From contig NZ_CM001436.1 of the NCBI RefSeq assembly GCF_000243255.1, positions 2,334,020 to 2,398,019 on the forward strand: a DNA stretch of 64,000 bases. The letters are read 5' to 3'. Shown in pieces: positions 1 to 24,189 of this stretch. The stretch comes from Methanoplanus limicola DSM 2279. Lineage in GTDB: Archaea > Halobacteriota > Methanomicrobia > Methanomicrobiales > Methanomicrobiaceae. Made by a program: the position numbers and the translations under genes. The notes under the pieces are model-generated. The model was not told where the DNA came from, searched no databases, and saw nothing but the letters and a program-made list of their open reading frames with translations. Positions within the stretch are counted from its first letter, which is position 1. Every line of letters begins with the position of its first letter.

Positions 1-157
1 CTCTTTCTCCTCTCTCCTCAGCTGCATGCATCCTGAGATCGACCTCGATTATCTCGGTTATTCTCTCTTCATATGCCCTTCTGCTCTCTTCATCTTCACT
101 CATATCACGTAAGCGTTCATACGCCTTCGCGACTTTGGGTTCAGCTTCTGCGGCCAT
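1..157 (-). CDS. Predicted internal-start C-terminal product of Rpn copy A (partial)
   Basis: Inside the nuclease gene and in the same frame, the sequence reads AAAGGAGG-AATTAATA-ATG-GCC. This is a full Shine-Dalgarno eight bases ahead of an ATG (Met200 of the full protein). Translation from here would give MAAEAEPKVAKAY onwards, the charged C-terminal third without the nuclease core. The product is cut by the window edge. Inferred by analogy with the intragenic small antitoxins reported for E. coli Rpn genes; not demonstrated here. Confidence 0.45.
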   Translation of the reverse strand, partial: MAAEAEPKVAKAYERLRDMSEDEESRRAYEERITEIIEVDLRMHAAEERGER

Positions 158-754
158 TATTAATTCCTCCTTTGTTGCTGCATTAAGAAACATCAGCCAC
201 GGTATTTCCGGATCGTTCTTATGTTGTCTACCATCATACTTAAGTTTTGGCAGTTCAACAATGTGAACTTCCAAAACATCAGTTAATTCTATCTCATTCT
301 TCCGGTCATAAAGCCTGAACATAGTATGCATAGGTTCAATCTCAAACAGGTTGTAATCGAGAATAACCAGAGAGATAGTCTTCTTAAGCAGGTGATAACC
401 ATCTCCGGCTGAGATCTGTGATGAATACAGTCTTGAGAGATAATATAAGACTCTCTCCCGGATTGCCGGATGGTCAGTTAACTGGATTTCAACATCAACC
501 TGAACTCCGGAATCAAGAACAATCCGGATGTCAAGTATCCCGGTCTTATCTCCGGAAACCTGCTTTAAGAGGAAGGGGTCTTTAATCTTTATGTCCTTGA
601 CCGGAATATGAAGCATTGCCCTTAGAAAGGCTATTGTGATATCTTTATTCTTCTCATCGCCAAAGAGCAGCCGAAAGGCAAAGTCGTTCTTTGGAGACAT
701 GATGAAAGAACCGTCAGGCGTTGTAATTTCAGGGGGAAAATTGCGTCTTAACAT
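1..754 (-). CDS. Rpn-family PD-(D/E)XK nuclease/putative transposase, copy A (C-terminus outside window)
   Basis: First of five copies of the same family in the first 14 kb, cut by the window edge after the AAEERGEK segment. The start is the ATG at 754, followed by MLRRNFPPEITTPDGSF, which matches the two intact copies. Members of this family (TIGR01784, PDDEXK_2) are DNA endonucleases linked to RecA-independent recombination and, in E. coli, to phage defence. The core is visible: FAFRLLFGDEKN near residue 25, catalytic D in ILDIRI (about residue 75) and the VDVEIQL motif (E89, Q91). Its DNA is nearly identical to copies B and D, which implies recent duplication or gene conversion. Preceded by the same conserved leader of about 57 bp as those copies. 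Confidence 0.88.
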   Translation of the reverse strand, partial: MLRRNFPPEITTPDGSFIMSPKNDFAFRLLFGDEKNKDITIAFLRAMLHIPVKDIKIKDPFLLKQVSGDKTGILDIRIVLDSGVQVDVEIQLTDHPAIRERVLYYLSRLYSSQISAGDGYHLLKKTISLVILDYNLFEIEPMHTMFRLYDRKNEIELTDVLEVHIVELPKLKYDGRQHKNDPEIPWLMFLNAATKEELIMAAEAEPKVAKAYERLRDMSEDEESRRAYEERITEIIEVDLRMHAAEERGER

Positions 755-1073: not shown

Positions 1074-1445
1074 TCATTTCGATTTTGATTCCGATTCCGA
1101 TTCTGTTTCAGGTTCAGGTTCAGCTTCAGCTTCAGATCTGAGCTGAGCTATTTTTTCTGCCGGAAGTTCGGTCACTTTAATTATGGTCTCGTCATCCATT
1201 CCAAGTGAGATCATTTTTTTGGCGGCACTAATACCTTTCTTTATCTCTCCGATCTCCTCTCCTACCTCTATTCCTTCTTCTCTTCCTCTCTTTTCTCCTC
1301 TCTCCTCAGCTGCATGCATCCTGAGATCGACCTCGATTATCTCGGTTATTCTCTCTTCATATGCCCTTCTGCTCTCTTCATCTTCACTCATATCAAGTAA
1401 GCGTTCATACGCCTTCGCGACTTTGGGTTCAGCTTCTGCGGCCAT
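1074..1445 (-). CDS. Predicted internal-start product of Rpn copy B (123 aa)
   Basis: In-frame ATG (Met200 of copy B) preceded by GGAGG at 1454-1458 with an eight-base spacer, one of the best ribosome sites in the window. It would yield the charged tail alone, starting MAAEAEPKVAKAYERLL. The same arrangement exists in all copies. A role as antitoxin or regulatory subunit of the nuclease is inference from the E. coli Rpn large/small pairs. Confidence 0.5.
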   Translation of the reverse strand: MAAEAEPKVAKAYERLLDMSEDEESRRAYEERITEIIEVDLRMHAAEERGEKRGREEGIEVGEEIGEIKKGISAAKKMISLGMDDETIIKVTELPAEKIAQLRSEAEAEPEPETESESESKSK

Positions 1446-2042
1446 TATTAATTCCTCCTTTGTTGCTGCATTAAGAAACATCAGCCACGGTATTTCCGGA
1501 TCGTTCTTATGTTGTCTACCATCATACTTAAGTTTTGGCAGTTCAACAATGTGAACTTCCAAAACATCAGTTAATTCTATCTCATTCTTCCGGTCATAAA
1601 GCCTGAACATAGTATGCATCGGTTCAATCTCAAAGAGATTGTAATCGAGAATAACCAGGGAAATAGTCTTCTTAAGCAGGTGATAACCATCTCCGGCTGA
1701 GATCTGTGATGAATACAGTCTTGAGAGATAATATAAGACTCTCTCCCGGATTGCCGGATGGTCAGTTAACTGGATCTCCACATCCACCTGCACTCCGGAA
1801 TCAAGAACAATCCGGATATCCAGTATCCCGGTCTTATCTCCGGAAACCTGCTTTAAGAGGAAGGGGTCTTTAATCTTTATGTCCTTGACCGGAATATGAA
1901 GCATGGCCCTTAGAAAGGCTATTGTGATCTCTTTATTCTTCTCATCGCCAAAGAGCAGCCGAAAGGCAAAGTCGTTCTTCGGCGACATAATGAAAGAACC
2001 GTCAGGCGTTGTAATTTCAGGGGGAAAATTGCGTCTTAACAT
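1074..2042 (-). CDS. Rpn-family PD-(D/E)XK nuclease/putative transposase, copy B
   Basis: Intact 322-residue member of the PDDEXK_2/TIGR01784 family. The nuclease core lies in about the first 190 residues: FAFRLLFGDEKN (25-36), D75 in ILDIRI, E89 and Q91 in VDVEIQL, then the helix AIRERVLYYLSRLYSS. Residues 200-322 form a highly charged coiled-coil-like tail with a GREEG/VGEE segment, KKMISLGMDDETI and a low-complexity ESESESKSK end. Copy D carries two extra 12-bp (GREE) repeat units in the tail, so tail length varies by repeat number. It lies in tandem with copy A, with a 319-bp gap. Nuclease activity is inferred from family residues. Confidence 0.9.
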   Translation of the reverse strand: MLRRNFPPEITTPDGSFIMSPKNDFAFRLLFGDEKNKEITIAFLRAMLHIPVKDIKIKDPFLLKQVSGDKTGILDIRIVLDSGVQVDVEIQLTDHPAIRERVLYYLSRLYSSQISAGDGYHLLKKTISLVILDYNLFEIEPMHTMFRLYDRKNEIELTDVLEVHIVELPKLKYDGRQHKNDPEIPWLMFLNAATKEELIMAAEAEPKVAKAYERLLDMSEDEESRRAYEERITEIIEVDLRMHAAEERGEKRGREEGIEVGEEIGEIKKGISAAKKMISLGMDDETIIKVTELPAEKIAQLRSEAEAEPEPETESESESKSK

Positions 2043-2098
2043 GACAGTAAACCCGGGAATAATAATATATGACCATTGATTATATATTTGCTCCTGTT
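2043..2098 (-). promoter_or_regulatory. Conserved leader/promoter of Rpn copy B
   Basis: Matches the leaders of copies A and D (TATA-like AATATATAAT, CCCGGG near the start codon) over about 56 bp. Similarity ends sharply at the TTGCTCCTGTTT side, marking the edge of the duplicated unit. Confidence 0.55.
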
Positions 2099-2190
2099 TT
2101 TATATTGAGTCTTTTTCCATACTACCGATTACTGGCAGTTATATCTCCGGAAATCAAGCCTCCGGAGGCACTGAATCTTTAACAGTTACG

Positions 2191-3987
2191 TCACTGACCG
2201 GAATTTGTGAATCTCCACCTGTTCTTCGGGACAGTTATCTCAAACTTTGCACCTTTCCCGCCGGCCCCTCTCTCTGCTATTGATATGTTTGTTATGTCAA
2301 GAATCTCTTTTGTAAGGAACAGCCCAAATCCGGTATTTCGGCCATAACCACGGTCAAAGATCTTCTTTTTTTTGTCGTCCGGAATTCCGCATCCGTCATC
2401 CTCAACTGTGATTACACCTTCACCGTCATCTCCGGTTCTGAAACCGACTGTGATTGCCTCTGCCCCTTCAGCGTATTTTCCGGAATTTTCAAAGAGGTTG
2501 TAGAATACTTTGTTGATCATCTGGTCGGCAAATATTTCTATATCTTCAGAACGGTCATTTAATGTGAGACCTCCGGAGTATGCTATATGCTCTTCGTGCC
2601 TGATTATATCGTTTAAGTTCTGCCATGACGGGGCATTTACGCCGAGGTTGTGGTATTCTTTTGTAAATGATATCTGTTTCTGGATTGTTGCTGATATTGA
2701 ATCCATTTTATTGATGTAATCCTTTGCCTCTTCTTCTTCAGGCGGAATTTTACCCTCAAGAAGCCGGTTATAAAGAATTAATGCTGAGACCTGGTTGAGG
2801 ATGTCATGGCGGGTTATGCTTGAGAGGAGGTTTAATTTTTTGTTCGCCTCTTCAACACTCTCCTGGTATTTTCTCAGGTCCGTTATATCCTGTGATATAC
2901 CAATGAGCCGCTTTGGCCCGTAGGATTCTGAAAATTCCGCAATTTCGCCTAATAGCATGTACCATCTGAATTCTTTGTTCAGTGACTGAATTCTGCTTAT
3001 AGTAGAGATATTTTTTTGATCTCCGTTCATTATTCTGGTAATACCTGCCTGGAAATTCTCAAGATCGTCAGGGTGTATGTAATTATAAAATTCATTTATA
3101 GGTAGTGTCTCCGGAATGGGAGAGTTAATTTCACGGCCCTGCATATTAATTGTGATTGTATCTTCAGTCAGATTGTAATCAAACAGTGTAAGCCTTGCAC
3201 CATTTAAGGCCAGTTTAAGCCTTTCTCCGTTCTCCAAAATCTCTTTTTCCTGCTTTTTCCTCCCGGTAATATCGTCAAAGACTACGATTATCTCTCCGGA
3301 CGGGACTGTATAGATGAAAAATTCCCTCCATTCACGGATACCTTCTTCATTTATATCCTCCCTGATAAAGTGCTCTTCCCTGCCGGTATCTGATACTCTC
3401 ATAATTTCTTTGTAGATATTAAACCTCTCTACTTCTCTAAGGTTTATTTCATGTCCAGTTTTGTGGATCTCTTCTTCTCTTCTGCTGTCTATCTGCATCC
3501 CTTTTTTATTGAGACTTTTAAGGATGAATTCATCTCCACCGTCTTTTCTGCTGATTATTGCAATACCGCTGCCGATATTGTTGAAGAGTTCCATGAAGAG
3601 ATTTTTATTGACTTCAGACTCTTCTTTTGCACTCTTCTGGATTTGAGAGAGGTAGGAGACCACAATTCCGACAAGTATGAACATTAATCCACGAATCAGT
3701 GCCGAAATTATGATGCCGGAGTTTATCTCCGGAAGGAGCGCCATGCTTAACAGATAAACTATGCTGACAAATCCGGCAAATTTAATGCCATATTTCGGGT
3801 AGTAGTACGATACAAGAATTATCGGGATATAAAAAAGGTGCGTAAATACGATTGTTACGCCTATTGATAAGCAGTATGCGGAGACAGATAAGCAGATGAT
3901 TGTAATTAAAATAATAAGCTGGAGGGATATTGACCGGAAATATTCTTTTAGATTTTGCATCGCTGATAAATAGTATTTGCATATCAT
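2191..3987 (-). CDS. Membrane PAS sensor histidine kinase
   Basis: 598 residues. The N-terminus has several hydrophobic segments (about 20-110) forming a membrane-bound sensor region without an obvious extracellular domain. A first PAS-like region (about 125-240) ends in IVVFDDITGRKKQEKE, and a second PAS/PAC (about 255-370) ends in RLIGISQDITDLRKYQE. The phosphoacceptor box is the methanogen-type RHDILNQVSALI, followed by an ATPase domain with N box NLFENSGKYAEGA, G1 DDGCGIPDD and GFGLFLTKEI. A start at 3960 (MQNLKEYFRS) is equally possible because neither ATG has a clear ribosome site. No response regulator lies next to it, so its partner is unknown. Confidence 0.88.
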   Translation of the reverse strand: MICKYYLSAMQNLKEYFRSISLQLIILITIICLSVSAYCLSIGVTIVFTHLFYIPIILVSYYYPKYGIKFAGFVSIVYLLSMALLPEINSGIIISALIRGLMFILVGIVVSYLSQIQKSAKEESEVNKNLFMELFNNIGSGIAIISRKDGGDEFILKSLNKKGMQIDSRREEEIHKTGHEINLREVERFNIYKEIMRVSDTGREEHFIREDINEEGIREWREFFIYTVPSGEIIVVFDDITGRKKQEKEILENGERLKLALNGARLTLFDYNLTEDTITINMQGREINSPIPETLPINEFYNYIHPDDLENFQAGITRIMNGDQKNISTISRIQSLNKEFRWYMLLGEIAEFSESYGPKRLIGISQDITDLRKYQESVEEANKKLNLLSSITRHDILNQVSALILYNRLLEGKIPPEEEEAKDYINKMDSISATIQKQISFTKEYHNLGVNAPSWQNLNDIIRHEEHIAYSGGLTLNDRSEDIEIFADQMINKVFYNLFENSGKYAEGAEAITVGFRTGDDGEGVITVEDDGCGIPDDKKKKIFDRGYGRNTGFGLFLTKEILDITNISIAERGAGGKGAKFEITVPKNRWRFTNSGQ

Positions 3988-4163
3988 ATATATCCTTTCT
4001 CTTTTAAGATCTCTTCCGAGAATGGGTATCTGTCAGGTTAAGCGAACTTTTCAGATTTTTTGCAGAGCGTCTTTTTTCAATTAAGAAGAAAAAACAATTT
4101 GATCAGTTTTTTAAATATCAAGACGCAATCTAAATAATATTATATTTGGGGTAAGAATAGGAT

Positions 4164-4449
4164 ATGTCCAATGATTTAACATTCATAACCAATCAAGAGA
4201 ACAGAACTCTTTATGACCGTTTTAAGATGCAGAGACATCAAGAGATATAGCTATGAATTCGCTGATCTGTGGTTAATAGCTACATTTCCAAGCAGACATT
4301 ATGATATTGATGATTTTCCGGCTGTAAAAGATTACCTGCTTAGCATAGGTAAAGAGAGATTGGAGCAGACTGGGAAAACACATAAAATAAACGATGGAAT
4401 TGGTGTTCACCGGACAACTGTTGACAATTTCATCAAAGAGAGGATGTAA
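4164..4449 (+). pseudogene. Junction of two decayed defence genes (PLD-helicase N-terminus + type IIG R-M fragment)
   Basis: An ATG at 4164 opens a 28-codon frame (MSNDLTFITNQENRTLYDRF) that resembles the extreme N-terminus of PLD-type SNF2/SF2 helicases of defence islands; it stops at 4248. In another frame (from 4213) follows YEFADLWLIATFPSRHYDID, then PAVKDYLL and GKERLEQTGKTHK. These match the C-terminal specificity region of Eco57I/TaqI-like type IIG restriction-methylases. The segment is far too short for either enzyme, and its last 20 codons look rearranged. Read as a deletion scar joining two former defence genes. The family matches are from memory of motifs, so moderate confidence. 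Confidence 0.5.
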
Positions 4450-4670
4450 TTTTTGAGTATAAATCCGGAAATGAATCAGGATATTGAATATAATGGACTA
4501 TGCATCCGGAAACAAAATTTGAGAGAGAACATTACAGACTAAACATCCGGAAACCGGGCAGAAAACAGGCAGGGTACATAAAACGCTTAGTGTAACATTC
4601 TTAAGAGAGAATATGATATCCGTAGATGAAACGAATATAATTCAGAACCAGCAATAAATTAACTCAGAGA

Positions 4671-4715
4671 TAAGTTTTCATTACGGAAACTTTTTGTTTC
4701 CGGAGCGAAAACTTA
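4671..4715. repeat. Two-stem hairpin repeat, left copy
   Basis: A 9-bp outer stem (TAAGTTTTC/GAAAACTTA) encloses a 7-bp inner stem (CGGAAAC-TTTTT-GTTTCCG). A 26-base core is repeated exactly at 5945-5970, on the far side of the MNT-HEPN genes. The surrounding gap (4450-4833) otherwise holds only the operator-like site at 4746-4787. Confidence 0.7.
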
Positions 4716-4745
4716 TTGTTTACAAAATGAAAACTAAATATAAGG

Positions 4746-4787
4746 TATGTCCGACAGATTGGATATTTCAGACATATCAGTTATGTC
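4746..4787. promoter_or_regulatory. Operator-like TATGTC/GACATA cluster upstream of the MNT gene
   Basis: Three half-sites in 42 bp: TATGTC (4746), GACATA (4771) and TATGTC (4782). The last two form GACATA-TCAGT-TATGTC, a perfect 6-bp inverted repeat. The cluster lies 47 bp before the start of a gene with an N-terminal helix-turn-helix, so autoregulation is a reasonable inference. Confidence 0.45.
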
Positions 4788-4833
4788 AGCATAGCAGAGA
4801 TATACTACTTATATCCAGGAAGGAAAACAAAAA

Positions 4834-5406
4834 ATGATATCTCAGCAGATAAACGCCAAAGGGATTTCTGAAATCCTAAAAACTGAAGACAGAATTGCAG
4901 TCCTGCGTTATGCTTCGGTGAATACATCTTTTACAGCAACTGATGTAGTAGCTTCAACCCGTAAAACCAAAGGTTTTGTTTCGCGTTATCTCAATCTGCT
5001 GTTAAAGGCCGGATATATCACATCACAGGGGAGAAATTATTTCTGGGTTGATAATGCTGAAACACAGTCACTAAAAAGATACTTAAATATACAGTTGCTG
5101 ATGTCAGTTCTGAAACTTCCGGAGTGGGCAAAAGGAATCGGATGCTATGGCAGTTTTGTAAAAGGCACCAATAATACAGACAGTGACCTTGACCTCTTTG
5201 TATTTGTAGAAAAATATTCCTACGAACTGGAGATAAAAGCTGCAAAAATTGAGAGAAATACTGAAAAAGTTATCGGTTCAGAAACAAACATTCTGATACT
5301 GACAGAGGATAAACTAATGGAAATGCAGGAGAATGATCAGCCGTTTTACAACAGTCTTATCAGGACTGCAGTTACTTTAAGGGGTGTTCACATTGAGGAG
5401 TATTGA
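4834..5406 (+). CDS. HTH-MNT nucleotidyltransferase (antitoxin side of an MNT-HEPN pair)
   Basis: 190 residues. Residues about 15-70 form a winged helix-turn-helix (TDVVASTRKTKGFVSRYLNLL). A minimal nucleotidyltransferase domain follows, with GSFVKGTNNTDSDLDLFVF, the G-S-x(n)-D-x-D active site, at about 105-125. In MNT-HEPN modules the nucleotidyltransferase AMPylates or otherwise neutralises the HEPN RNase. Start: ATG at 4834 with an AGGAAGG ribosome site. It overlaps the HEPN gene start by about 14 bases, the usual operon layout. The fused DNA-binding domain suggests it represses its own promoter. Confidence 0.85.
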   Translation: MISQQINAKGISEILKTEDRIAVLRYASVNTSFTATDVVASTRKTKGFVSRYLNLLLKAGYITSQGRNYFWVDNAETQSLKRYLNIQLLMSVLKLPEWAKGIGCYGSFVKGTNNTDSDLDLFVFVEKYSYELEIKAAKIERNTEKVIGSETNILILTEDKLMEMQENDQPFYNSLIRTAVTLRGVHIEEY

Positions 5407-5831
5407 TGAATGTTTCAGGAAGAAACTCCTCCGAAAGGTTGAACCATCAAAGAAAAAAGCTGAAGAATCGTTAAAAATTGCTGAGGCCCATCCTGAAGAA
5501 GCAGAACAGGCACTATCAGCCGGAGCAAAAAGAATGGCAATTTCAGGTGCATATATGGGTTGGTTTCACTCATCACGTGCTGTATTATTCAGAGATGGCA
5601 TCCGGGAGAAAAGCCATTACTGTATAGAACTGTATCCTGAAAACCTATGTCAAATCAGGTTATCCTGAAGAAGAATGGATTTTAACGCTTAACCGAATCA
5701 GATCAAAGCGCCATGACAGCCAATATTCTTTTGCACCACAACCGGATGAAGAGGAAATTAATGCATCAATTAACGGAGCTGAAAAATTCATTGAACGAAT
5801 AAAAAGGCTCCTGTCAGAGACTGAAAAATAA
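5393..5831 (+). pseudogene. HEPN-domain toxin, frameshifted
   Basis: Starts at a TTG (5393) or GTG (5384) overlapping the end of the MNT gene. The first frame gives IDECFRKKLLRKVEPSKKKA through AYMGWFHSSRAVLFRDG and ends at 5668. One extra base near 5635-5640 breaks it: removing it continues as LKTYVKSGYPEEEW, LNRIRSKRHDSQYSF (the HEPN Rx4-6H RNase motif) and a terminal helix ending KRLLSETEK at 5831. The catalytic motif is thus lost from the open frame. The toxin is probably inactive, unless the shift is a sequence error or is rescued by slippage. The intact upstream antitoxin is then a bystander. Confidence 0.8.
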
Positions 5832-5932
5832 TCTCGCAGATTGCAGCAACAATGAAATATTCCTTACGAAAAGATCAGAACCCGAACATATTCCAGTCAC
5901 CAAAAACCAATCATAACTCTACATGGATATAT

Positions 5933-5972
5933 GTTTTTCATATCAGAAACTTTTTGTTTCCGGAGCGAAAAC
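5933..5972. repeat. Two-stem hairpin repeat, right copy
   Basis: Second copy of the hairpin at 4671-4715. The core GAAACTTTTTGTTTCCGGAG and the following CGAAAA are identical, while the outer stem is imperfect here. The two copies bracket the MNT-HEPN cassette in the same orientation. Confidence 0.65.
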
Positions 5973-6053
5973 CAACCCAACACAAAACCACAACCAATAA
6001 TTACCTCCTGCTCATTCAGGAATTTATATCCATAACCCGACAAATAATAACTA

Positions 6054-7034
6054 ATGCTTTTTGATGAGACATTCATTTTTAAAAGTCACGAATGTGCCAA
6101 AAGTTTTCTCTCCGTGTTAAAAGAGGGCGGAGTTAAAACCCGGATAAATGAAACTATTAGTAACCTGCCAAGGGATTATGTCACCGGAAAAATGGAGGAC
6201 ATAAACAGGTGGCTGCTGGCACTCTTGGAGGAAAGAGAGGATTTAAAAGATGTTATTCATTTAATGCATAAGAAAAACCTGGAACTAAAAGACAGAATTG
6301 ATAATTACCTTAAAGATAAATCCAAAGGGGACTTCCTCTACACCCATGATGAACTGAAACGGGATACAGTCAGGGCATATACCAGATTGCAGGAAGAGAT
6401 TAAAAATAGCGACCCGGACGATTTTAAGAGCGCAAATGGCTTATTACCTGAGCTACTTGATACTTCATCATTAAGTATAATTCACAGATTGCTTAAAGAA
6501 CAGGGCATTCTTGAGGAATGTGAAGAGGGGTACATACTTAAAGATGACATAACCGGAGCAGACATTATTTATAAAGCCCCGGCGATGGATCTTAGGTTCT
6601 GTGAAGGGCCGGCATTTTCCGGATTAAAACTTTTAACTATATTTGAACCAACTATCAGATACGAAGTTAATGTCAGTATTATAGATATTATCGACATTGA
6701 TCTGGAGGAACTAAAATTAATCATGCTTGCATGTGAAATGAAATCCGATGATGCGGTCAATATGGCTACAGATCATCTATTTAAGAAAAGTATTATCGGA
6801 CTGATCCTAAAAGGAGTTGATGAAAACAATGGAATATCTGCTGAAGAGTTGTCATTATATATTATGGATAAATGGAACTCTCTAAAAACCTTTGACAATA
6901 GAAAGACAGAACTTAAGCTAAGAGAAGAGATCGTAACTGCATTCATATCAGAACTAAAAAAGGCAGGTATAATTGCAGGAAATGTTAACAGTCTCAGGAT
7001 TGCTCCGGTTAAAAGCCGTAAAAAGAAGAGATAA
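6054..7034 (+). CDS. Hypothetical protein, 326 aa (unknown family, paralogue 1 of 3)
   Basis: Not recognised. It shares an end-to-end plan with the genes at 10643 and 15295: an N-terminal MLFDETFIFKS start, VTGKMEDINRWLL (about 42-54), KDKSKGDFLYTHDEL (about 88-102), LSIIHRLLKEQGILEE near the middle, then GPAFSGLKLLTIFEPTIRYE and VSIIDIIDIDLEEL. It ends in a basic KSRKKKR. No signal peptide or membrane segment; mostly helical and soluble in character. Similarity to paralogue 3 is high, to paralogue 2 weak. It stands alone on this strand after the MNT-HEPN cassette, with Rpn copies downstream on the other strand. Confidence 0.8.
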   Translation: MLFDETFIFKSHECAKSFLSVLKEGGVKTRINETISNLPRDYVTGKMEDINRWLLALLEEREDLKDVIHLMHKKNLELKDRIDNYLKDKSKGDFLYTHDELKRDTVRAYTRLQEEIKNSDPDDFKSANGLLPELLDTSSLSIIHRLLKEQGILEECEEGYILKDDITGADIIYKAPAMDLRFCEGPAFSGLKLLTIFEPTIRYEVNVSIIDIIDIDLEELKLIMLACEMKSDDAVNMATDHLFKKSIIGLILKGVDENNGISAEELSLYIMDKWNSLKTFDNRKTELKLREEIVTAFISELKKAGIIAGNVNSLRIAPVKSRKKKR

Positions 7035-7144
7035 TTTAGAGGGAACCGGCCTGAAAAACCCGTATAATTTCAGCAGAGTCCGGACTTTTCTCCATCAAAT
7101 AATTTTTTAGCAGGCAGCCATAAATGATTCGCGGTATCCGATTC

Positions 7145-7486
7145 TCATTCTGATTCAGCTTCAGATCTGAGCTGGGCTATCTTCTCTGCCGGAAGTTCGG
7201 TCACTTTAATTATGGTCTCGTCATCCATTCCAAGTGAGATCATTTTTTTGGCGGCACTAATACCTTTCTTTATCTCTCCTATTTCCTCTCCTACCTCTAT
7301 TCCTTCTTCTCTTCCCTCTTCTCTTCCCTCTTCTCTTCCTCTCTCCTCAGCTGCATGCATCCTGAGATCAACCTCAATTATCTCGGTTATTCTCTCTTCA
7401 TATGCCCTTCTGCTCTCTTCATCTTCACTCATATCACGTAAGCGTTCATACGCCTTCGCGACTTTGGGTTCAGCTTCTGCGGCCAT
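7145..7486 (-). CDS. Stand-alone Rpn C-terminal fragment, copy C (113 aa)
   Basis: Only the last third of an Rpn gene is present. Similarity to copies B and D starts at about 7541 and runs to the stop; the nuclease core is gone. The internal ribosome site (GGAGG at 7495-7499) and the ATG at 7486 are preserved, so MAAEAEPKVAKAYERLRDM onwards can be made as a free protein. An ATG at 7522 (MFLNAATKEEL) is possible but has no ribosome site. It lies 149 bp downstream of intact copy D on the same strand, so both may be on one transcript. Either a decayed duplicate or a dedicated extra antitoxin gene. Confidence 0.55.
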   Translation of the reverse strand: MAAEAEPKVAKAYERLRDMSEDEESRRAYEERITEIIEVDLRMHAAEERGREEGREEGREEGIEVGEEIGEIKKGISAAKKMISLGMDDETIIKVTELPAEKIAQLRSEAESE

Positions 7487-7671
7487 TATTAATTCCTCCT
7501 TTGTTGCTGCATTAAGAAACATCAGCCACGGTATTTCCGGATTAATCTTATGTTATGCTTTCTGAAAAATCTGAGGGCCGGGTGGGGTATTGCTAGTATT
7601 GGGGGAGAAGAGATGTTTTAAAAAATATTGATTCCCGGCGAAAACTCAGGGTTAAGGTTAATTCCCGGTTC

Positions 7672-8043
7672 TCACTCAGATTCGTTTTTGGGTTCAGATT
7701 CAGCTTCAGATCTGAGCTGAGCTATTTTTTCTGCCGGAAGTTCGGTCACTTTAATTATGGTCTCGTCATCCATTCCAAGTGAGATCATTTTTTTGGCGGC
7801 ACTAATACCTTTCTTTATCTCTCCTATTTCCTCTCCTACCTCTATTCCTTCTTCTCTTCCCTCTTCTCTTCCCTCTTCTCTTCCCCTCTTTTCTCCTCTC
7901 TCCTCAGCTGCATGCATCCTGAGATCGACCTCGATTATCTCGGTTATTCTCTCTTCATATGCCCTTCTGCTCTCTTCATCTTCACTCATATCACGTAAGC
8001 GGTCATATGCCTTCGCGACTTTGGGTTCAGCTTCTGCGGCCAT
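7672..8043 (-). CDS. Predicted internal-start product of Rpn copy D (123 aa)
   Basis: In-frame ATG at Met200 with GGAGG at 8052-8056, as in copy B. Would give the charged tail alone. Predicted from the ribosome site and by analogy to E. coli Rpn small proteins. Confidence 0.5.
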   Translation of the reverse strand: MAAEAEPKVAKAYDRLRDMSEDEESRRAYEERITEIIEVDLRMHAAEERGEKRGREEGREEGREEGIEVGEEIGEIKKGISAAKKMISLGMDDETIIKVTELPAEKIAQLRSEAESEPKNESE

Positions 8044-8640
8044 TATTAATTCCTCCTTTGTTGCTGCATTAAGAAACATCAGCCACGGTATTTCCGGATC
8101 GTTCTTATGTTGTCTACCATCATACTTAAGTTTTGGCAGTTCAACAATGTGAACTTCCAAAACATCAGTTAATTCTATCTCATTCTTCCGGTCATAAAGC
8201 CTGAACATAGTATGCATAGGTTCAATCTCAAACAGGTTGTAATCGAGAATAACCAGGGAGATAGTCTTCTTAAGCAGGTGATAACCATCTCCGGCTGAGA
8301 TCTGTGATGAATACAGTCTTGAGAGATAATATAAGACTCTCTCCCGGATTGCCGGATGGTCAGTCAGCTGGATTTCAACATCAACCTGAACTCCGGAATC
8401 AAGAACAATCCGGATATCCAGTATCCCGGTCTTATCTCCGGAAACCTGCTTTAAGAGGAAGGGGTCTTTAATCTTTATGTCTTTGACCGGAATATGAAGC
8501 ATTGCCCTTAGAAAGGCTATTGTGATATCTTTATTCTTCTCATCGCCAAAGAGCAGCCGAAAGGCAAAGTCGTTCTTTGGAGACATGATGAAAGAACCGT
8601 CAGGCGTTGTAATTTCAGGGGGAAAATTGCGTCTTAACAT
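7672..8640 (-). CDS. Rpn-family PD-(D/E)XK nuclease/putative transposase, copy D
   Basis: Intact 322-residue copy, almost identical to copy B, with the same core residues (D75, E89, Q91). Differences cluster in the tail: three GREEG units in a row where copy B has one, and a different low-complexity end (ESEPKNESE in place of EPEPETESESESKSK). The tail repeat is a 12-bp CTTCTCTTCCCT-type tandem array, so tail length can change by slippage without loss of frame. The C-terminal-only copy C follows 149 bp downstream. Confidence 0.9.
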   Translation of the reverse strand: MLRRNFPPEITTPDGSFIMSPKNDFAFRLLFGDEKNKDITIAFLRAMLHIPVKDIKIKDPFLLKQVSGDKTGILDIRIVLDSGVQVDVEIQLTDHPAIRERVLYYLSRLYSSQISAGDGYHLLKKTISLVILDYNLFEIEPMHTMFRLYDRKNEIELTDVLEVHIVELPKLKYDGRQHKNDPEIPWLMFLNAATKEELIMAAEAEPKVAKAYDRLRDMSEDEESRRAYEERITEIIEVDLRMHAAEERGEKRGREEGREEGREEGIEVGEEIGEIKKGISAAKKMISLGMDDETIIKVTELPAEKIAQLRSEAESEPKNESE

Positions 8641-10642: not shown

Positions 10643-11641
10643 ATGATACTTGAAGAGCAGGTCACATTTTTAACAGATGAAGCGGCTGAGAAGTTTACAG
10701 AATGGCTGATAGAAAAAAACTGCCACCCGGAAGTGAAAAAACATTTAGACACAACCCTGAATGTGCTTGCAAGAGGGACCTTAGATGACATAATCGACTG
10801 GTGCGAAGATATGACTGAGGAGGATGAAGAGCAGTGGGAGGAATTTTCTGTCCTGCAGGAGTTTAATGAGGACTATAAAGAAGCATTATCTCTGCTTATT
10901 GACGGGAAAAAACCCGGAGATCTGCTATATACCCATGAGGACTTTGAGGTCTCAACCGTTAAACTTCTCACAAGCGTCTGCCCGGATTTAGAACTGAAAG
11001 ACGATATTGAGCTTCCCGGTTATTCATCGGAGACACTTGAAGATGAGATATTCAGTCAGGTTCCGCTCTCAATAATCCATACAAATCTTGAAGAAGAGAG
11101 TTATATTAAAGAGTCTGAGAGAGGCTTTATTCTCTCTACAGATAAAGAACCGGGTGAGATGATAACGGAGACTGATGTTACCTCTTTTGAACTGCCGACC
11201 CTGGAGAATTCTCCCGGAATTGTTTATGTCTCTGCTTTCATTGCAGATGAGAGCTTTGAGGTTATATTCCGGATGCCGGAGTACCTTGTCATAGAAGCCG
11301 ATGAACTCAGTGAAGTTCTGGTTGATCTTGGACTTGATGAGGATGAAGTTATGGATATTGTAAACAACTTCCGGCTTAAAAAAACCATTCTGGCATATAT
11401 ACTGGGTATAGTTGAAAAATACGGTGAAATTACGGTTGACGACCTGAAAAGAAATATCGAAAAGTTATGGAAAGAATCAGGTGTTAAAACCGGCAGCTAC
11501 TCAAAGATAGCTGTCACATCCGGACTTATGGAGTCAATAACCAGGGAGCTTGAACATGATGGTATTTTAACCAAAGAAGGCAACGTTGTTGCTGCTTCGC
11601 CCTTATGGAAAGAAAGGCTCAATCAAAAAAGTCACCCATAA
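10643..11641 (+). CDS. Hypothetical protein, 332 aa (unknown family, paralogue 2 of 3)
   Basis: Not recognised; the most diverged of three paralogues. It keeps the plan MILEEQVTFLTDEAAE..., RGTLDDIIDWCED, KKPGDLLYTHEDFE, LSIIHTNLEEESYIKESERG, and FRLKKTILAYILGIVEKYGE in the place of LFKKTIIELILTGVDENRG. It is much more acidic than the others and lacks their GPAFSGLK motif and basic tail. Its last codons (QKSHP-stop) are supplied by a dispersed intergenic repeat that starts at 11624, so its natural C-terminus may have been replaced by repeat insertion. Confidence 0.78.
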   Translation: MILEEQVTFLTDEAAEKFTEWLIEKNCHPEVKKHLDTTLNVLARGTLDDIIDWCEDMTEEDEEQWEEFSVLQEFNEDYKEALSLLIDGKKPGDLLYTHEDFEVSTVKLLTSVCPDLELKDDIELPGYSSETLEDEIFSQVPLSIIHTNLEEESYIKESERGFILSTDKEPGEMITETDVTSFELPTLENSPGIVYVSAFIADESFEVIFRMPEYLVIEADELSEVLVDLGLDEDEVMDIVNNFRLKKTILAYILGIVEKYGEITVDDLKRNIEKLWKESGVKTGSYSKIAVTSGLMESITRELEHDGILTKEGNVVAASPLWKERLNQKSHP

Positions 11642-13122: not shown

Positions 13123-13827
13123 TTACGGGCTTATGCTCTCCTCATATAACCGTCTGTTCTCCCCGTCATCGCTCATCTCAAGTAAAAGGTCATACGCCTT
13201 CGCGACTTTGGGTTCAGCTTCCGCAGCCATCCTTAACTCCTCCTCTGTTGCTGCATTAAGAAACATCAGCCACAAAACTTCCGGACTTTTCTTATTCTGT
13301 TCTCCATCAGATTTCAGTTTTGGCAGTTCAAAGAGGTGCACTTCCATAGAATCTGATAATTCAATATCATTCTCACAATCATAAAGCCTGTAAGTAGTAT
13401 GCATCTCTTCAGCCTGGGAGGCATTGCAGTCAAGAATAACCAGTGAGAGGCTCTTTTTAACTGAACCGGACCGTTCTCCGGAGAAGAACTGTGAGAAGGT
13501 CATATTATAGAGGGAAGGGACTACTCTTTCCTTTATTGCCGGATCATTGCCCAGCCAGACCTCAACATCTGCCTGCCCTCCTGAAGCCAGAAACATGCGG
13601 ATTTCAAATATTCTGCTTTTATCTGCAAAAGCCTGCTTTAGAACAGAAGGATCTTTTATATTGATGTCCTCAACCGGAATATTGAGCAATGCACTCAGGA
13701 AAGATATTGTGACCTCCTTGTTCTTCTCATCCCCAAATAGCAGCCGAAAGGCATAGTCATTCTTCGGAGACATAATAAATGAACCATCAGAAGTGGTAAT
13801 TTTGGGTGGAAAGTTTTGTTCAGACAT
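13123..13827 (-). CDS. Diverged, truncated Rpn-family protein, copy E (234 aa)
   Basis: Aligns with copies A-D from SDGSFIMSPKNDYAFRLLFG onward but only moderately. Two active-site positions have changed: D75 is E (IFEIRM) and Q91 is W (ADVEVWL). The long charged tail is missing, the protein ending about 35 residues after Met200 at YEESISP. The start at 13827 (MSEQNFPPK) aligns with the family; an upstream in-frame ATG at 13884 is less likely. The internal GGAGGAG site and ATG at 13230 are kept but would yield only 35 residues. Probably a catalytically dead relic. Confidence 0.75.
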   Translation of the reverse strand: MSEQNFPPKITTSDGSFIMSPKNDYAFRLLFGDEKNKEVTISFLSALLNIPVEDINIKDPSVLKQAFADKSRIFEIRMFLASGGQADVEVWLGNDPAIKERVVPSLYNMTFSQFFSGERSGSVKKSLSLVILDCNASQAEEMHTTYRLYDCENDIELSDSMEVHLFELPKLKSDGEQNKKSPEVLWLMFLNAATEEELRMAAEAEPKVAKAYDLLLEMSDDGENRRLYEESISP

Positions 13828-14001
13828 AGATATCAACTCAAATATAACAATATCTGTTTGTATATTATATATTAACTCCTTCATTTATTTAGAAATCCGA
13901 ATATATTTATTCCGGACCGGATGAAAGAGACTATGTACTGATGCTGATTACAGATTATCATAATCTATCAGATTGTGACAAACTTATAGATTTTTGCGAC
14001 T

Positions 14002-15294: not shown

Positions 15295-16278
15295 ATGATA
15301 TTTGATGAGAAATTTGTCTTCTATGACCAGCAGTCTGCCAAAAATTTACAATTGGTTCTGAAAAAGTTCGGTGCTAAAAGTCGTATAAATGAAGATATCT
15401 ATAACGAACAGGAAGAGATTGTCACCGGGAAACTGGATGACATAAACAGGTGGCTCCTTTCAGTTGCAGATGACAACAATAGCGATATTAAAAATATTAT
15501 TTTTGCAATACATGAGAAAAATGTGATAATAAAAGATACAATTGATCAATATCTAAAAGACAAATCCAAAGGTGACTTCCTGTACACCCATGATGAACTT
15601 GCAGAAGATGTTATGGAGGTAAGTGAAAATATGGAGGAGCAGATGCACGGAAAAGACCGGGACAATCCTCAAGATCTAATTGACTTAATATCCACATTTA
15701 TCGAGAGTTCACCATTAAGTATAATTAACAGGGTTCTGGAAGATCAGGGCATTCTTGAGGAGACTGAGGAGGGATTTTGGCTTAAGGAAAAAATAAGCGG
15801 AGGAGATATAATTTATCAGGTGCCGGCTATGGAAGCTGAATATTGTACAGGGCCGGCATTTTCCGGGTTAAAATGTATTACCATATTTAAACCGGTTATA
15901 AAATACGAGGTCACAATCAACATTATGGACATCATTGACCTTGATATGGATGACATAGGCATTATTATGATGGGATGTGGAATGGAGCCTGATTATACGG
16001 CTGATCTGGCCTTAGATTATCTATTTAAGAAGACTATTATAGAGCTGATCTTAACGGGAGTTGATGAAAACAGAGGAATATCAGCTGAACAGTTGTCTGC
16101 CGATATTATGGATGAATGGAGCTCTGTATCCTATATGGGGGATTTGGAATCCAGACTTGATTTAGACCCGGAAATCATACCGGCTTTTGTTGCAGAGCTT
16201 AAACGTGCAGGTCTTTTATCCGGAAATCTCAATCATCTTAAGCCTGTCTCAGCTAAAAGCAGTAAAAAGAGGAGATAA
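15295..16278 (+). CDS. Hypothetical protein, 327 aa (unknown family, paralogue 3 of 3)
   Basis: Not recognised. Close relative of the 6054 gene: MIFDEKFVFYDQQSAK, VTGKLDDINRWLLS, LKDKSKGDFLYTHDEL, LSIINRVLEDQGILEETEEG, GPAFSGLKCITIFKPVIKYE, MDIIDLDMDDIGIIM, LFKKTIIELILTGVDEN, and a basic KSSKKRR tail. The conserved blocks are separated by variable acidic stretches, which suggests a two-domain soluble protein with the centre most conserved. It ends 223 bp before the convergent hsdR gene. Confidence 0.8.
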   Translation: MIFDEKFVFYDQQSAKNLQLVLKKFGAKSRINEDIYNEQEEIVTGKLDDINRWLLSVADDNNSDIKNIIFAIHEKNVIIKDTIDQYLKDKSKGDFLYTHDELAEDVMEVSENMEEQMHGKDRDNPQDLIDLISTFIESSPLSIINRVLEDQGILEETEEGFWLKEKISGGDIIYQVPAMEAEYCTGPAFSGLKCITIFKPVIKYEVTINIMDIIDLDMDDIGIIMMGCGMEPDYTADLALDYLFKKTIIELILTGVDENRGISAEQLSADIMDEWSSVSYMGDLESRLDLDPEIIPAFVAELKRAGLLSGNLNHLKPVSAKSSKKRR

Positions 16279-16501: not shown

Positions 16502-19500
16502 TCAGATTGTATCTTCATTAAAATTGTCAGTCCACATCTCACACTGGGCAATAACTGTGCTTAATGCATCTTCCATACCCTCAGGAGGATATTTATGCTG
16601 CTTTAGCAGCCGCTTGACAAGCCGCCTCATGCCGGCTCTCGCCGTCTCTTTCTTCTGCCAGTCGATTGTCCTGTTTTTTTGCAGAAGTTCTGTCAGTTCT
16701 TTGGTGATGGCGACAAGTTCTTCATTTTCGTAGAAATCTTTTACTGCTTCGGGTTTTGTAAGAGCGTCATAAAAGGCCATCTCTTCAGGTGTAAGGCCAA
16801 GCTTTTCACCTTCTTTTTGAGCTTCTGCCATTTCCTCTGCCATTTTAAGCAGTTCTTCGATGACCTGTTCATTTGTCAGAAGGCCGTTTATGTACCTGTT
16901 CATTGCTTCTGACAAAAGCTCAGAAAATCTGGCAGATTTTACTACATTAGTCCCTGAATAAACCCTGATCTGTTCTGACAGCAGTTTTTTAAGCAGTTCG
17001 ACTGCAAGGTTCTTCTCTTTCATCCGGGAGATTTCCAGGAGGAATGCTGAATCAAAGAGTGAATATTTATCCCCGACATCAGAGAAGAGATTAATTACTC
17101 CATCGCTCTGGATGCTCTGCTTTAACAGTTCGTTTATGCGGCTGTTTATATCTTTTAATGAGATTTTCCCTTTTCCTTCAATCCGTGTCAGAAGGGTTCT
17201 GACGGCTTCAAAGTAGGCGGCTTCAAATCTCTGGCTCTTTGAAAGAAGACTCCGGCAGAGAGATAATGCATGGTGAAGAAGAAGGGATTCTTTGATATAT
17301 CTCTTCTTAATCTCGTCTTTTGAAGGTTGTGAGAGGAAATTGACTCCGCCTTTGATGAGTTTTGCCCTCTTTAAGTCTGTGCCGGTTTCAAATCCGGAAT
17401 AGTCATAGCCGTGGAATAAATCCCGGCAGACTTCCAGTTTTTCAAGGAATTTTGGAAAGGCAGTTTTTGCTATGTCGGGATTGCCGTAGTTTTTCCGGTC
17501 ACGTCCGGTATAATCCTTCATCGCTTTTCTGAGTGCACCGGCGATTCCGACATAATCGACAATGAGTCCGCCCTGTTTGTCCATATAAACGCGGTTTACA
17601 CGGGCTATTGCCTGCATCAGGTTATGACCGGTCATTGGTTTATAGACATACATGGTGCAGAGTGACGGGACATCAAAACCTGTAAGCCACATATCAACAA
17701 CGATTGCGATCTTTAAGGGGTCGTTATTGTCCTTAAATTTCGTCCTCATGATCTCCTTATGCTTTTTATTACCGATGACTTCACGCCAGTCTTCAGGGTC
17801 GTTGTTGTCAGAGGTCATGACAACACCGATTTTTTCCGTCCATTCCGGGCGCATTTTCAGGATCTCACGGTATATTTTCATGGCGATTGGTCTTGAGTAG
17901 GCAACTATCATCGCTTTTCCGGTCTGCTCAAACTGCCTGTATGTCCCGTAATGTCTGACGATATCTTCGCAGAGCGTTGTGATTGTTTCAGGTGCTCCGA
18001 GTATGCTTTCAAGCTGTCCGAGTTGATGTTTGCTTTTTTCGACAACGTACTCTTCTGCCTCTTCTGAGACGCGGTCGTACTCTTCGTCTATCTCCTGAAG
18101 GATTTTTCCGTCCAGTCTTAGAGCAACTACCCGGCTTTCATAAAATATGGGAACGGTTGCGTTGTCTTCGACAGACTGTGTCATGTCGTAGATGTCGATG
18201 CAGTTGCCGAATATCTCCTCTGTATTTCTGTCAGCAAGGGAGACGGGCGTTCCGGTAAATCCTATGTATGTCGCATTTGGAAGGCTGTTTCTGACTTTTC
18301 TGGCTGATCCTGTCCGGATTTTTCCGGTCTTTGCATCAAATTTTTCCTCAAGGCCGTACTGGCTCCGGTGGGCTTCGTCTGCGATTACGACAATGTTTCT
18401 CCGTTTGGAGAGGGGGGCGTCATACTCTTCAAACTTCTGCATTGTTGTAAATATTATGCCGTTTACCTCCCTGTTCAGTATGAGTTTTTTTAGATCGGCC
18501 CGGCTTTCAGCCTGAACGGGGGTCTGTCTCAGAAAGTCTCTGCATGCTGCAAACTGGCTGAACAGCTGTCCGTCAAGGTCGTTTCTGTCGGTTATTACGA
18601 TTATTGTCGGGCTGTCAAGTACTTCCCGGAGCTGTTTTGCATAAAAGACCATTGAAAGAGATTTTCCGCTTCCCTGTGTGTGCCAGAATACTCCTCCTTT
18701 TCCATCGGTTAAGGTTGCCTCTTTTGTCGATAGAAGGGCCTTTTTTACTGCAAAATACTGGTGATATGCTGAAAGTATCTTTTTGTCATCCGGGATTTCC
18801 TTTGAGAAGCAGATGAAGTTTTTAAGGAGGTCAAGGAATCTGTTTTTATCAAATATTCCTTCAAAGAGGACGTCAAACGCGGCGTACTGGGTATTTTCAT
18901 AGCTGCCGTCAACGGTCTTCCATTCCATGTACCGGTCTTCATCAGCTGTGATTGTCCCGGCCTTTGATGTCGCCTGGTCGCTCATTACACAGAATGCATT
19001 ATAGACAAAAAGACTGGGGATGTCATAGAGATAGTTTCTAAGCTGTCTATATGCTTCCGATACGTCTGTTTCTTCTCTGGATGGCGATTTTAGTTCAATT
19101 ACCACAAGCGGAAGTCCGTTTACAAAGATGACAATGTCGGGCCGTTTTTCTGCTTCGTCGATGACTGTCCACTGGTTTATGACATGAAAGGTGTTATTTC
19201 CGGCACAATCGGCATTTCCATCATATCCAAAATTCCCATCGCCAAAGTCTATGAGATAGACGAGGGTTGAGCGTTCTTCTTTTCCGTCGTAGTATTTCAC
19301 CGGAATTCCGTTCTGGAGATATTCTGTAAAGATGAAATTCTTCTGTATCAGGGTTCCGGTCCCGATATTTCTGAGCTTGTAAACCGCTTCTTCAATGGCG
19401 GCTTCCGGAAGTTTTGGGTTTATTCTTCTGAGGGAGGATAGGAGCACTTCTTCATACAGCGGGCTGTGATAGTCCCGGACTATGTAAGGGCCGTATTCGT

Positions 19501-19570
19501 ATGTATAGCCGAGGTTGTCCGAAAAGATTTCAATTATTGCTTTCTCAAAATTTGCTTCCGTGAAGGTCAT
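16502..19570 (-). CDS. hsdR: Type I restriction enzyme, R (endonuclease/translocase) subunit
   Basis: 1022 residues, normal for HsdR. The N-terminal nuclease has the PD-(D/E)XK core: D145 in KRPDIVIFVNG, then E159 and K161 in VVIELKSP, followed by AYRQLRNY. The SF2 motor has GSGKS (about 300-304), DEAH (398-401), YIGFTGTP and QAIARVNRVY. The C-terminal helical part binds the methylase core. It translocates DNA and cuts away from unmethylated sites when bound to HsdM2S. Its ATG overlaps the stop of the 19567 gene by four bases, so the two are translationally coupled. hsdS and hsdM lie upstream on the same strand. Apparently intact. Confidence 0.95.
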   Translation of the reverse strand: MTFTEANFEKAIIEIFSDNLGYTYEYGPYIVRDYHSPLYEEVLLSSLRRINPKLPEAAIEEAVYKLRNIGTGTLIQKNFIFTEYLQNGIPVKYYDGKEERSTLVYLIDFGDGNFGYDGNADCAGNNTFHVINQWTVIDEAEKRPDIVIFVNGLPLVVIELKSPSREETDVSEAYRQLRNYLYDIPSLFVYNAFCVMSDQATSKAGTITADEDRYMEWKTVDGSYENTQYAAFDVLFEGIFDKNRFLDLLKNFICFSKEIPDDKKILSAYHQYFAVKKALLSTKEATLTDGKGGVFWHTQGSGKSLSMVFYAKQLREVLDSPTIIVITDRNDLDGQLFSQFAACRDFLRQTPVQAESRADLKKLILNREVNGIIFTTMQKFEEYDAPLSKRRNIVVIADEAHRSQYGLEEKFDAKTGKIRTGSARKVRNSLPNATYIGFTGTPVSLADRNTEEIFGNCIDIYDMTQSVEDNATVPIFYESRVVALRLDGKILQEIDEEYDRVSEEAEEYVVEKSKHQLGQLESILGAPETITTLCEDIVRHYGTYRQFEQTGKAMIVAYSRPIAMKIYREILKMRPEWTEKIGVVMTSDNNDPEDWREVIGNKKHKEIMRTKFKDNNDPLKIAIVVDMWLTGFDVPSLCTMYVYKPMTGHNLMQAIARVNRVYMDKQGGLIVDYVGIAGALRKAMKDYTGRDRKNYGNPDIAKTAFPKFLEKLEVCRDLFHGYDYSGFETGTDLKRAKLIKGGVNFLSQPSKDEIKKRYIKESLLLHHALSLCRSLLSKSQRFEAAYFEAVRTLLTRIEGKGKISLKDINSRINELLKQSIQSDGVINLFSDVGDKYSLFDSAFLLEISRMKEKNLAVELLKKLLSEQIRVYSGTNVVKSARFSELLSEAMNRYINGLLTNEQVIEELLKMAEEMAEAQKEGEKLGLTPEEMAFYDALTKPEAVKDFYENEELVAITKELTELLQKNRTIDWQKKETARAGMRRLVKRLLKQHKYPPEGMEDALSTVIAQCEMWTDNFNEDTI

Positions 19571-20160
19571 TGGGATTTCTCCTTTTGGGAGAGGAATGTT
19601 TTATATTTCTGATTAGGGGATGTTGGTTTATCAGGGTTTGTTTTAATCAGCTTTTTTTCGTTTAACAGTCCAGAGATATATTTATAATAGAAAGTGGAGC
19701 GGCTTTTTTTCTCTAAAATAATACACAGTTCATCAATTGTAAATTCCGCCTGTGAACAGATTTCACGAATTAAATCTTTCATTATCTCCGGCCGGGTTCG
19801 TTTTCCCAATTTTAAAAGTGCCATTTTGGTTTCTTCAGATAATGATGATAATAACAAGTCTCGTTCAGTTAAAGCTTCACTTCTAAGAGCATCAGGCTTC
19901 ACTTCTAAAGAGTCAGCTTCATGTTTAGTGATGGAAACTTCATGTTTAAGAGTCCCAGACTTCCCCTTTAAGGGGTCAGCTTCATGTTTAGTGATAGAAG
20001 CTTCATGTTTAAGAGTCCCGGGCTTCACTTCTAAGGAGTCAGCTTCAAAGGTTACTTTTTCTATGAGTTTGTCAGTCCCCATGTATTCACAGAGTTTTGC
20101 TTCGCTTATATTTTTTAGATGATTACTCTGTAAATCCGCTGACATTTCTAAAATTCCCAC
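19567..20160 (-). CDS. Small protein with 21-residue tandem repeats and C-terminal winged helix
   Basis: 197 residues, not a known Hsd subunit. Residues about 40-102 hold three tandem 21-residue repeats (EADSLEVKPGTLKHEASITK type), encoded by 63-bp DNA repeats. After a linker, residues about 125-195 look like a winged helix (FTIDELCIILEKKSRSTFYY, ISGLLNEKKLIKT), similar to the C-terminal DNA-binding domains that follow AlbA_2 (Schlafen-like) regulators. Coupled by ATGA overlap to hsdR, so probably co-expressed. Could be the remnant of an AlbA_2 regulator that now serves as an R-M controller; function unknown. Confidence 0.7.
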   Translation of the reverse strand: MGILEMSADLQSNHLKNISEAKLCEYMGTDKLIEKVTFEADSLEVKPGTLKHEASITKHEADPLKGKSGTLKHEVSITKHEADSLEVKPDALRSEALTERDLLLSSLSEETKMALLKLGKRTRPEIMKDLIREICSQAEFTIDELCIILEKKSRSTFYYKYISGLLNEKKLIKTNPDKPTSPNQKYKTFLSQKEKSQ

Positions 20161-20350
20161 GCTTTATTATATTATAGAATGTTTTTGATTAATATATATG
20201 GTGTGTGTTTTTGATTAATATAAATGGTGTGTGTTTTTGTTTTTGGTATTTCTGAGAAGTTTCATTATTTGAAAAAAGCATACCAGATTGTCGCAAAAAA
20301 ATTTATTCACAATAAGAAATTTAATTTTTTCAAAGGGTCTGATTAAAAAT

Positions 20351-20752: not shown

Positions 20753-20779
20753 CCGGATTCAGTAATTACAAAAAAATTT

Positions 20780-22012: not shown

Positions 22013-22217
22013 TTTATTTCTCTCTTATTCACTATCCCAGCTGTCATATTTGCATTCAACACTCTGTTCTCGGAAACACCCTGACATCGTCCTCAATGAA
22101 ATTATCGAGTTCGAGGGCTGAAGTGAGAAACACCTCATATTTGAATACAAAAAGATCGTCGGCCATCCCTGCCGTTGCATAGCGTACAAGTTTATCATTA
22201 TTCTCAGGTGGTGTTCT

Positions 22218-22246
22218 GAATTTAGGAGACACTGTCTCCCAAATTC
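22218..22246. repeat. Palindromic element inside DUF1016 relic (copy 2)
   Basis: 29-bp inverted repeat GAATTTAGGAGACAC followed by TGTCTCCCAAATTC, one mismatch. Same element as 23791-23819. Confidence 0.7.
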
Positions 22247-22363
22247 CTTCTATATATTGGTTGTCATCATTATCTGCTGAAGAGTGTATTGTAAGATAAT
22301 GGCCCTTAACGGCCTTTGGGGGGTTTGACATTGGGACAATCATTTTTTCAGGCGAAGTTCTGA

Positions 22364-22388: not shown

Positions 22389-22463
22389 ACCTCCTATGAA
22401 ATTATGTTGCTCATTAACAGGAGATGCAGGAGATGAAACTAATTGCGAGTCCATCTTTCTAAA

Positions 22464-22543: not shown

Positions 22544-22559
22544 ATATCAAACATATTAC

Positions 22560-24186: not shown

Positions 24187-24189
24187 CCC

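Follow-up and report, generated by a model that had tools for sequence, protein, structure and literature searches.

In Escherichia coli, the toxic Rpn protein RpnL is blocked by RpnS, a small protein made from a start inside the same gene, and a promoter for RpnS has been reported inside the gene as well (PMC10327210). Separate rpnS genes also exist in E. coli and are expressed, the repeats set specificity, arrays appear to come from tandem duplication, and one extra repeat abolished neutralization; a C. difficile gene also yields an RpnS, rpn genes are reported in a defense setting, and Rpn proteins were counted in two archaeal phyla, with no archaeal test reported in the text consulted (PMC10327210). 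An archaeal precedent for internal in-frame translation is Cas11b of Haloferax volcanii, produced from within cas8b and called the first known archaeal case (PMC11899642). Here we describe five rpn copies (A to E) in a 64,000-nucleotide stretch of DNA (hereafter the window; G000:C1:2334020-2398019) from the 3.2 Mb genome of the archaeon Methanoplanus limicola DSM 2279, each of which carries a Shine-Dalgarno (SD) sequence and an in-frame ATG at a position equivalent to residue 200 of the full-length protein. We consider it likely that the full-length genes are gene-within-gene toxin-antitoxin systems of the RpnL/RpnS type found in E. coli.

The resemblance to the E. coli proteins (RpnA-E and the plasmid-borne RpnP2) extends to shared membership in TIGR01784, a nuclease N-terminus, a helical C-terminus with 4-residue repeats, an internal SD-ATG, and the presence of separate rpnS-like genes. 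Unlike E. coli RpnA, which belongs to PF04754, the window copies belong to PF12784, their host is an archaeon, and one to three stand-alone units stand behind one full gene. The internal start of RpnA reads AAGGAG-6-ATG at Met244, in agreement with the K240/E241/M244 mutant of the E. coli study (PMC10327210), and lies near TIGR01784 position 227, whereas Met200 lies at about 182 by an end-point estimate without alignment, so that the archaeal start would fall about 45 model positions earlier. Like Cas11b, the small protein proposed here would come from an internal in-frame start in an archaeal defense gene; unlike RpnS, Cas11b is a CRISPR subunit from another gene family, needed for interference and not presented there as an antitoxin (PMC11899642). 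A possible SD-ATG also occurs inside a Clostridioides plasmid gene annotated as Rpn family (L234), where the candidate start, Met301 (preceded by GAGGT), lies near the repeats in the E. coli-like place and a scan found no Met200-type site. Our literature search, judged by titles and abstract openings and with most subscription papers outside its coverage, returned no report of an internal start in an archaeal Rpn gene. If our reading is correct, archaea and the PF12784 branch would be added to the known range of the gene-within-gene antitoxin, with a different start position, and the RpnS idea would become testable in a methanogen.

All five copies are encoded on the minus strand, and the site was found in each of them as the original prediction had claimed: copies A-D read AAAGGAGG-AATTAATA-ATG in frame on the coding strand, and copy E reads GGAGG-AGTTAAGG-ATG, the same GGAGG-8 nt-ATG layout with other codons. 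The 16S rRNA end in this genome, ...GGATCACCTCCT, is complementary to GGAGG. Copies B (1074..2042) and D (7672..8640, 149 bp upstream of copy C) are full-length genes for proteins of 322 residues and candidate RpnL genes, with the internal sites at 1443..1458 and 8041..8056, respectively, and with Met200 opening putative RpnS products of 123 residues each (1074..1445 and 7672..8043). Copy A (1..754), of the full-length type, has its site at 155..170; its open reading frame (ORF) runs past the window edge into a run of N, as does the predicted product. Copy C (7145..7522, site at 7484..7499) departs from the claim that every one of these is an Rpn gene, being a stand-alone C-terminal ORF of 125 residues from Met188 or 113 residues from the SD-ATG at 7486; an in-frame stop lies 23 codons ahead of its Met200. 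The predicted product size of 113-123 residues with a charged tail holds for B, C, and D and fails for the diverged copy E (13123..13884, 253 residues, site at 13228..13243), whose ORF stops short of the C-terminal domain.

The full-length starts of B and D lack an SD sequence (TTCCCGGGTTTACTGTY-ATG), as had been noted from the letters alone, and this is not special in the window, since an SD-like word precedes the first ATG in only 10 of 41 long window ORFs, a count in which the first ATG may not be the true start and some ORFs are probably spurious. The window contains 19 occurrences of GGAGG-5..10-ATG where 12.2 would be expected, and as many turned up in 3 of 100 shuffles, so a single copy is unremarkable alone and the case rests on family-wide conservation. 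A scan of the 41 window ORFs of at least 200 residues (15,337 codons, some ORFs probably spurious) for an internal in-frame GGAGG-4..10-ATG returned six sites; Rpn copies A, B, D, and E account for four.

The protein-level anatomy is that of an Rpn nuclease. Copy B scores 173.5 bits against TIGR01784 (cut-off 52.1) and 189 bits against PF12784 (cut-off 27.4), copy E scores 80.3 and 136.2, and copy C scores 37.3 and 17.1, below both cut-offs as expected of a part; copy D is a PF12784 member too. The near-invariant columns D75 and E89-x-Q91 (copy B numbering, alignment A2), which we take to be the PD-(D/E)XK catalytic residues, are present in A, B, and D when read by eye, whereas the alignment shows the set not intact in copy E, where D75 is replaced by E and Q91 by W. 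Copy B was modeled with AlphaFold2 from 23 sequences (mean pLDDT 82.6). The mixed alpha/beta core reaches about residue 177 and helices follow from 183 on, among them those across 195-307; Met200 falls inside the modeled helix 195-204, past the core, so the internal product would be free of the nuclease core. Foldseek gave no match to this model at E<=0.001. In sequence searches of the PDB, the A1 profile reached RpnA (7th0) only at E 0.22 and had its best match in 8vd6 (E 6e-4, with no single stretch passing by itself), and a single-protein search reached 6hlk at 0.0015 over residues 196-277.

In the mechanism we propose, the poorly started, SD-less full ORF would yield the PD-(D/E)XK nuclease RpnL, and the strong internal SD-ATG at Met200, just past the nuclease core, would yield RpnS, the helical C-terminal region with its 4-residue repeats. 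RpnS would pair with the matching region of RpnL and silence the nuclease until some event, such as infection, released it, and would also have been duplicated out into separate genes that begin at about the same point. From the sequence signal we infer that ribosomes initiate at Met200; binding and inhibition of RpnL by RpnS is suggested by analogy with E. coli, and the system may defend against viruses.

The evidence that carries the internal start comes from the bases of the site across PF12784, a family that is rare in the host's archaeal phylum (6 of 391 sampled genomes). Homologues were gathered by PF12784 and protein searches; 229 ORFs matched an iterated profile, 159 of them covered at least 150 columns, and 82 were left at <60% identity as a non-redundant set, whose members are related, so that counts among them are not independent events. 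Methionine occupies the Met200 column (model column 203) in 31 of the 82, and 23 of these 31 have GGAGG-4..10-ATG, compared with 4.67±1.93 (maximum 11) in 200 within-gene synonymous shuffles, a conservative comparison because the shuffle pool retains the site's own codons. The same signal occurred at none of the Met-rich columns 93, 101, 112, and 190 (33, 19, 19, and 16 Met). When the tripeptide was controlled for in the same genes, XE[EDVGA] was encoded with GGAGG at 42 of 77 on-site occurrences versus 74 of 700 elsewhere (Fisher test, 3e-18). Predicted anti-SD energy at column 203 averaged -9.75 versus -5.0 in shuffles (z -9.3), stronger than the -7.1 at the near-N-terminal Met column 19 (z -4.1, n=8), which we read as full-length starts; columns 201 and 223 gave z -4.1 and z -2.4, and the 499 Met outside the site region averaged -2.09 versus -2.02 shuffled.

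Third bases give the same result at the level of single codons. Against a background of 552/1711, the E(-4) codon is GAG in 25 of 26 cases (binomial p 5e-11) and K/E(-5) codons end in G in 21 of 25 (binomial p 1e-7), while at E(-3), where the third base lies outside GGAGG, GAG is used in 8 of 18, like background. GGAGG persists as the encoded residues change (KEE, EEE, REE, KEV, KEG, KEA, WEE, PEV, and MEV among them): with redundancy kept, the 62 distinct 24-base sites that encode Met at this column include 48 in which GGAGG lies within 21 bases and 45 in which its spacing is 4-10. Five extra plasmid genes picked by taxon included three with GGAGG-8-ATG over different residues (Priestia LEEIAM, Paenibacillus WEVLTM, and Bacillus arachidis LEDIAM), and the other two, from Clostridioides and Planktothrix plasmids, had none. 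The constrained bases are those that form GGAGG, demonstrating nucleotide-level selection on the start signal; chance and codon bias as sources of GGAGG are ruled out in this sample by the shuffles, the tripeptide control, the anti-SD energies, and the third-base bias. Conservation above what Lys-Glu-Glu codons require, the check that the original prediction had asked for, was thereby strongly borne out. At the level of bases, not amino acids, these findings are evolutionary evidence that selection has maintained an overlapping start signal within a nuclease gene, both in archaea and among several groups of bacteria (Clostridia, deltaproteobacterial lineages, and Treponema, named from record titles, as well as Bacilli plasmids).

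A second body of evidence comes from stand-alone C-terminal ORFs. The genome contains 16 matches in two clusters (291-304 kb and 2332-2348 kb), six of them stand-alone C-terminal ORFs, at genome positions 301158-301607, 302968-303342, 303478-303807, 2341571-2341164 (copy C), 2333738-2333289, and 2333170-2332802; a run of N interrupts the last of these. All six retain AAAGGAGG-N8-ATG. The reading frame of the unit whose Met lies at 303025 begins behind a TAA located 20 codons upstream. It contains no ATG, GTG, or TTG ahead of the SD-ATG, which is therefore the sole canonical start, and the upstream DNA is by eye mostly unlike rpn. Of 28 family genomes (our own counted), just one more has a match, G024 of the same genus, where a full rpn gene is followed by three intact tandem stand-alone units, each carrying AAGGAGG-N8-ATG, and a broken fourth. 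Our reading offers a reason for stand-alone C-terminal ORFs that annotation would term fragments: some tail pieces appear to have turned into genes of their own that begin near the Met200 point. The shared starting place of these ORFs supports the proposed likeness to E. coli Rpn logic, in which neutralization would follow by analogy.

C-terminal-only ORFs in the Methanospirillum-type genome G407 have homology that begins just past the Met200 position and lack an SD sequence, so they give no support there for the SD as a required part. Among the 229 matching ORFs, 38 were classed as C-terminal-only, many of these being cut pieces, broken genes, or fusions; the bacterial loci L103 and L112 have C-terminal-only ORFs with GGAGG ahead of a Met. 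L130 and L197 were dropped as separate C-terminal genes, since their matches contain internal stops. One ORF of G407 (L060, G407:C1:2971887-2972630) joins a pair of C-terminal units head to tail; both have an inner Met of their own, and no SD was seen before the first. A stand-alone unit in the Methanospirillum genome G389 appears frame-broken. Two loci from a different protein family (L059 and L095) combine a different-looking N-terminal part with an Rpn-like repeat tail and have GGAGG-ATG near the tail, which may represent tail swapping. Left of the window, runs of N (L018, genome about 2332800-2333940) fall inside copy A and one stand-alone unit; they sit in or beside the repeat stretch and may be assembly gaps caused by near-identical copies, or withheld bases.

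Of the explanations that deny a second product, the first attributes GGAGG to a conserved Lys/Glu-Glu-Glu-x-x-Met motif combined with codon bias. E196, E197, and M200 are indeed invariant in an alignment of eight sequences, but the synonymous shuffles, the tripeptide control, and the third-base bias seen at E(-4) and missing at E(-3) contradict such a by-product, as does the retention of GGAGG at 48 of 62 distinct sites while residues change, and we find it hardly credible. The internal SD might instead pause the ribosome at a domain boundary or promote frameshifting, and the site does lie near the junction of nuclease core and helical tail in the model. We regard this as very unlikely: GGAGG occurs in the site region of 44 of the 82 genes, in the same phase in 43 of the 44, and is followed by an in-frame ATG in 39 (6, 27, and 6 genes at spacings of 5, 8, and 11, respectively), with an out-of-frame ATG in only one and no ATG in four, one of which (L086) has by eye a GTG at 8; furthermore, a stand-alone ORF keeps the site with almost no upstream coding sequence.

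Two other explanations are compatible with an internal start. The small protein could, improbably in our view, be a structural subunit instead of an antidote, one that RpnL requires to assemble or to bind DNA in the way that Cascade depends on Cas11; Haloferax Cas11b works in this way (PMC11899642), the product proposed here would be an estimated 45 residues or so longer at its front than E. coli RpnS, and the unmatched repeat lengths of stand-alone copies (below) suit either role, additive subunit or antidote, equally well, but E. coli RpnS blocks RpnL activity (PMC10327210), and the E. coli and window proteins both belong to TIGR01784. The stand-alone ORFs, for their part, could be functionless recombination debris of repeated rpn genes, which would be compatible with a working intragenic start and which we judge somewhat unlikely. 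The tandem near-identical units, the broken fourth unit of G024, a short remnant in our genome, the frame-broken G389 unit, and repeat lengths unlike those of neighbors all suit debris. On the other side, the matches begin at a consistent place (copy B residues 175-190 in both genome clusters and 186 in G024), five of the six ORFs of this genome read through to a stop codon with the sixth ending in a run of N, and separate rpnS genes of E. coli are expressed (PMC10327210). In addition, a +1 change (CCTTTG) just before Met188, identified by eye relative to the full genes, is common to the G024 units and the unit at 303517 of our genome, suggesting that the stand-alone unit is older than the species split.

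Returning to the gene-within-gene antitoxin that we favor, several observations weigh against it. The proximal SD-ATG is present in 43 of 78 testable non-redundant genes and absent from 35 (four more are too short), so that the loss from most homologues named as a refuting outcome in the original prediction is seen in part, outside the motif-bearing subfamily. Among 40 archaeal or archaeal-like rows, which include some cut duplicates and two from a record titled as a Cloacimonadota metagenome-assembled genome (L074), an SD-ATG stands at column 203 in 24, with AGGAGA rather than GGAGG in three; of the 16 without it, 12 form an archaeal subfamily (G257/G347) that lacks the motif in 12 of 12 rows, two showing scattered SD-start places elsewhere, and the last four look cut or frameshifted ahead of the site. 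About 47-50 residues separate Met200 from the repeats, compared with 8-20 between start and repeats in the E. coli paper (PMC10327210). A remnant at genome 294676 keeps AAAGGAGG and ATG with 13 codons following, and copy E keeps its site although its ORF ends 35 residues past the Met, with no charged tail or useful product. Selection had been argued from copy E; it is seen family-wide, and copy E, probably a decaying copy with a truncated ORF and altered catalytic positions, is weak evidence when taken by itself, the family data taking its place.

Repeat lengths also run counter to a simple pairing of antidote and toxin. The 4-residue repeat region measures 14, 18, 22, 26, 30, 34, 38, or 42 residues, all 2 mod 4, in the 16 measurable copies of 23 rows (the other seven being cut by N, truncated, broken, or without anchor words). 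Full gene and adjoining stand-alone unit differ in all seven measurable pairs, with full/stand-alone lengths of 38/34, 14/22, 30/26, and 30/18 and, in G024, 14/34, 14/30, and 14/26. A match in repeat number between neighbors, with 0 of 7 pairs agreeing, was accordingly rejected, and this absence is not evidence of avoidance, as eight length classes make random mismatch likely. A doubtful extension of our reading holds that every full gene is kept silent by the matched RpnS encoded within it and that the stand-alone genes, copied out behind full rpn genes, form an expandable antidote bank with varied repeat numbers; if true, the cell would be immune to foreign or diverged Rpn nucleases or could tune the release of its own.

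An E. coli-like distal start near the repeats was also considered as a general PF12784 solution and rejected for lack of enrichment, occurring in 2 of 43 genes with the proximal site and 0 of 35 without it (shuffles, 1.3 and 0.5). In this genome's copies, Met also occurs at model column 245, 42 residues past Met200, behind a weak GAGGT in the E. coli-like place; this column shows no family signal in anti-SD energy and is occupied by Ile in the L025 cluster of G024.

The window also contains several defense-type genes, which fits the defense setting reported for rpn (PMC10327210). Type I restriction-modification genes occupy 16502-25692 (best matches to restriction endonuclease, specificity, and methyltransferase subunits), with a PDC-S02 candidate defense gene at 23038-24186 between them; adjacent genes at 46346-48258 match AbiLii and AbiLi as an abortive-infection-like pair, and a type IV restriction-like gene and an Old/AriA/GajA-like ATPase gene lie at 56688-62652. 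PADLOC assigned no family to copy B itself at E<=1e-5. Among viral contigs, 151 pattern matches included no relative by tblastn, and 7 of 50,697 phage records matched. Three genes that look alike by eye lie among the rpn copies, at 6054-7034 (no Pfam match at E<=0.001), 10643-11641, and 15295-16278.

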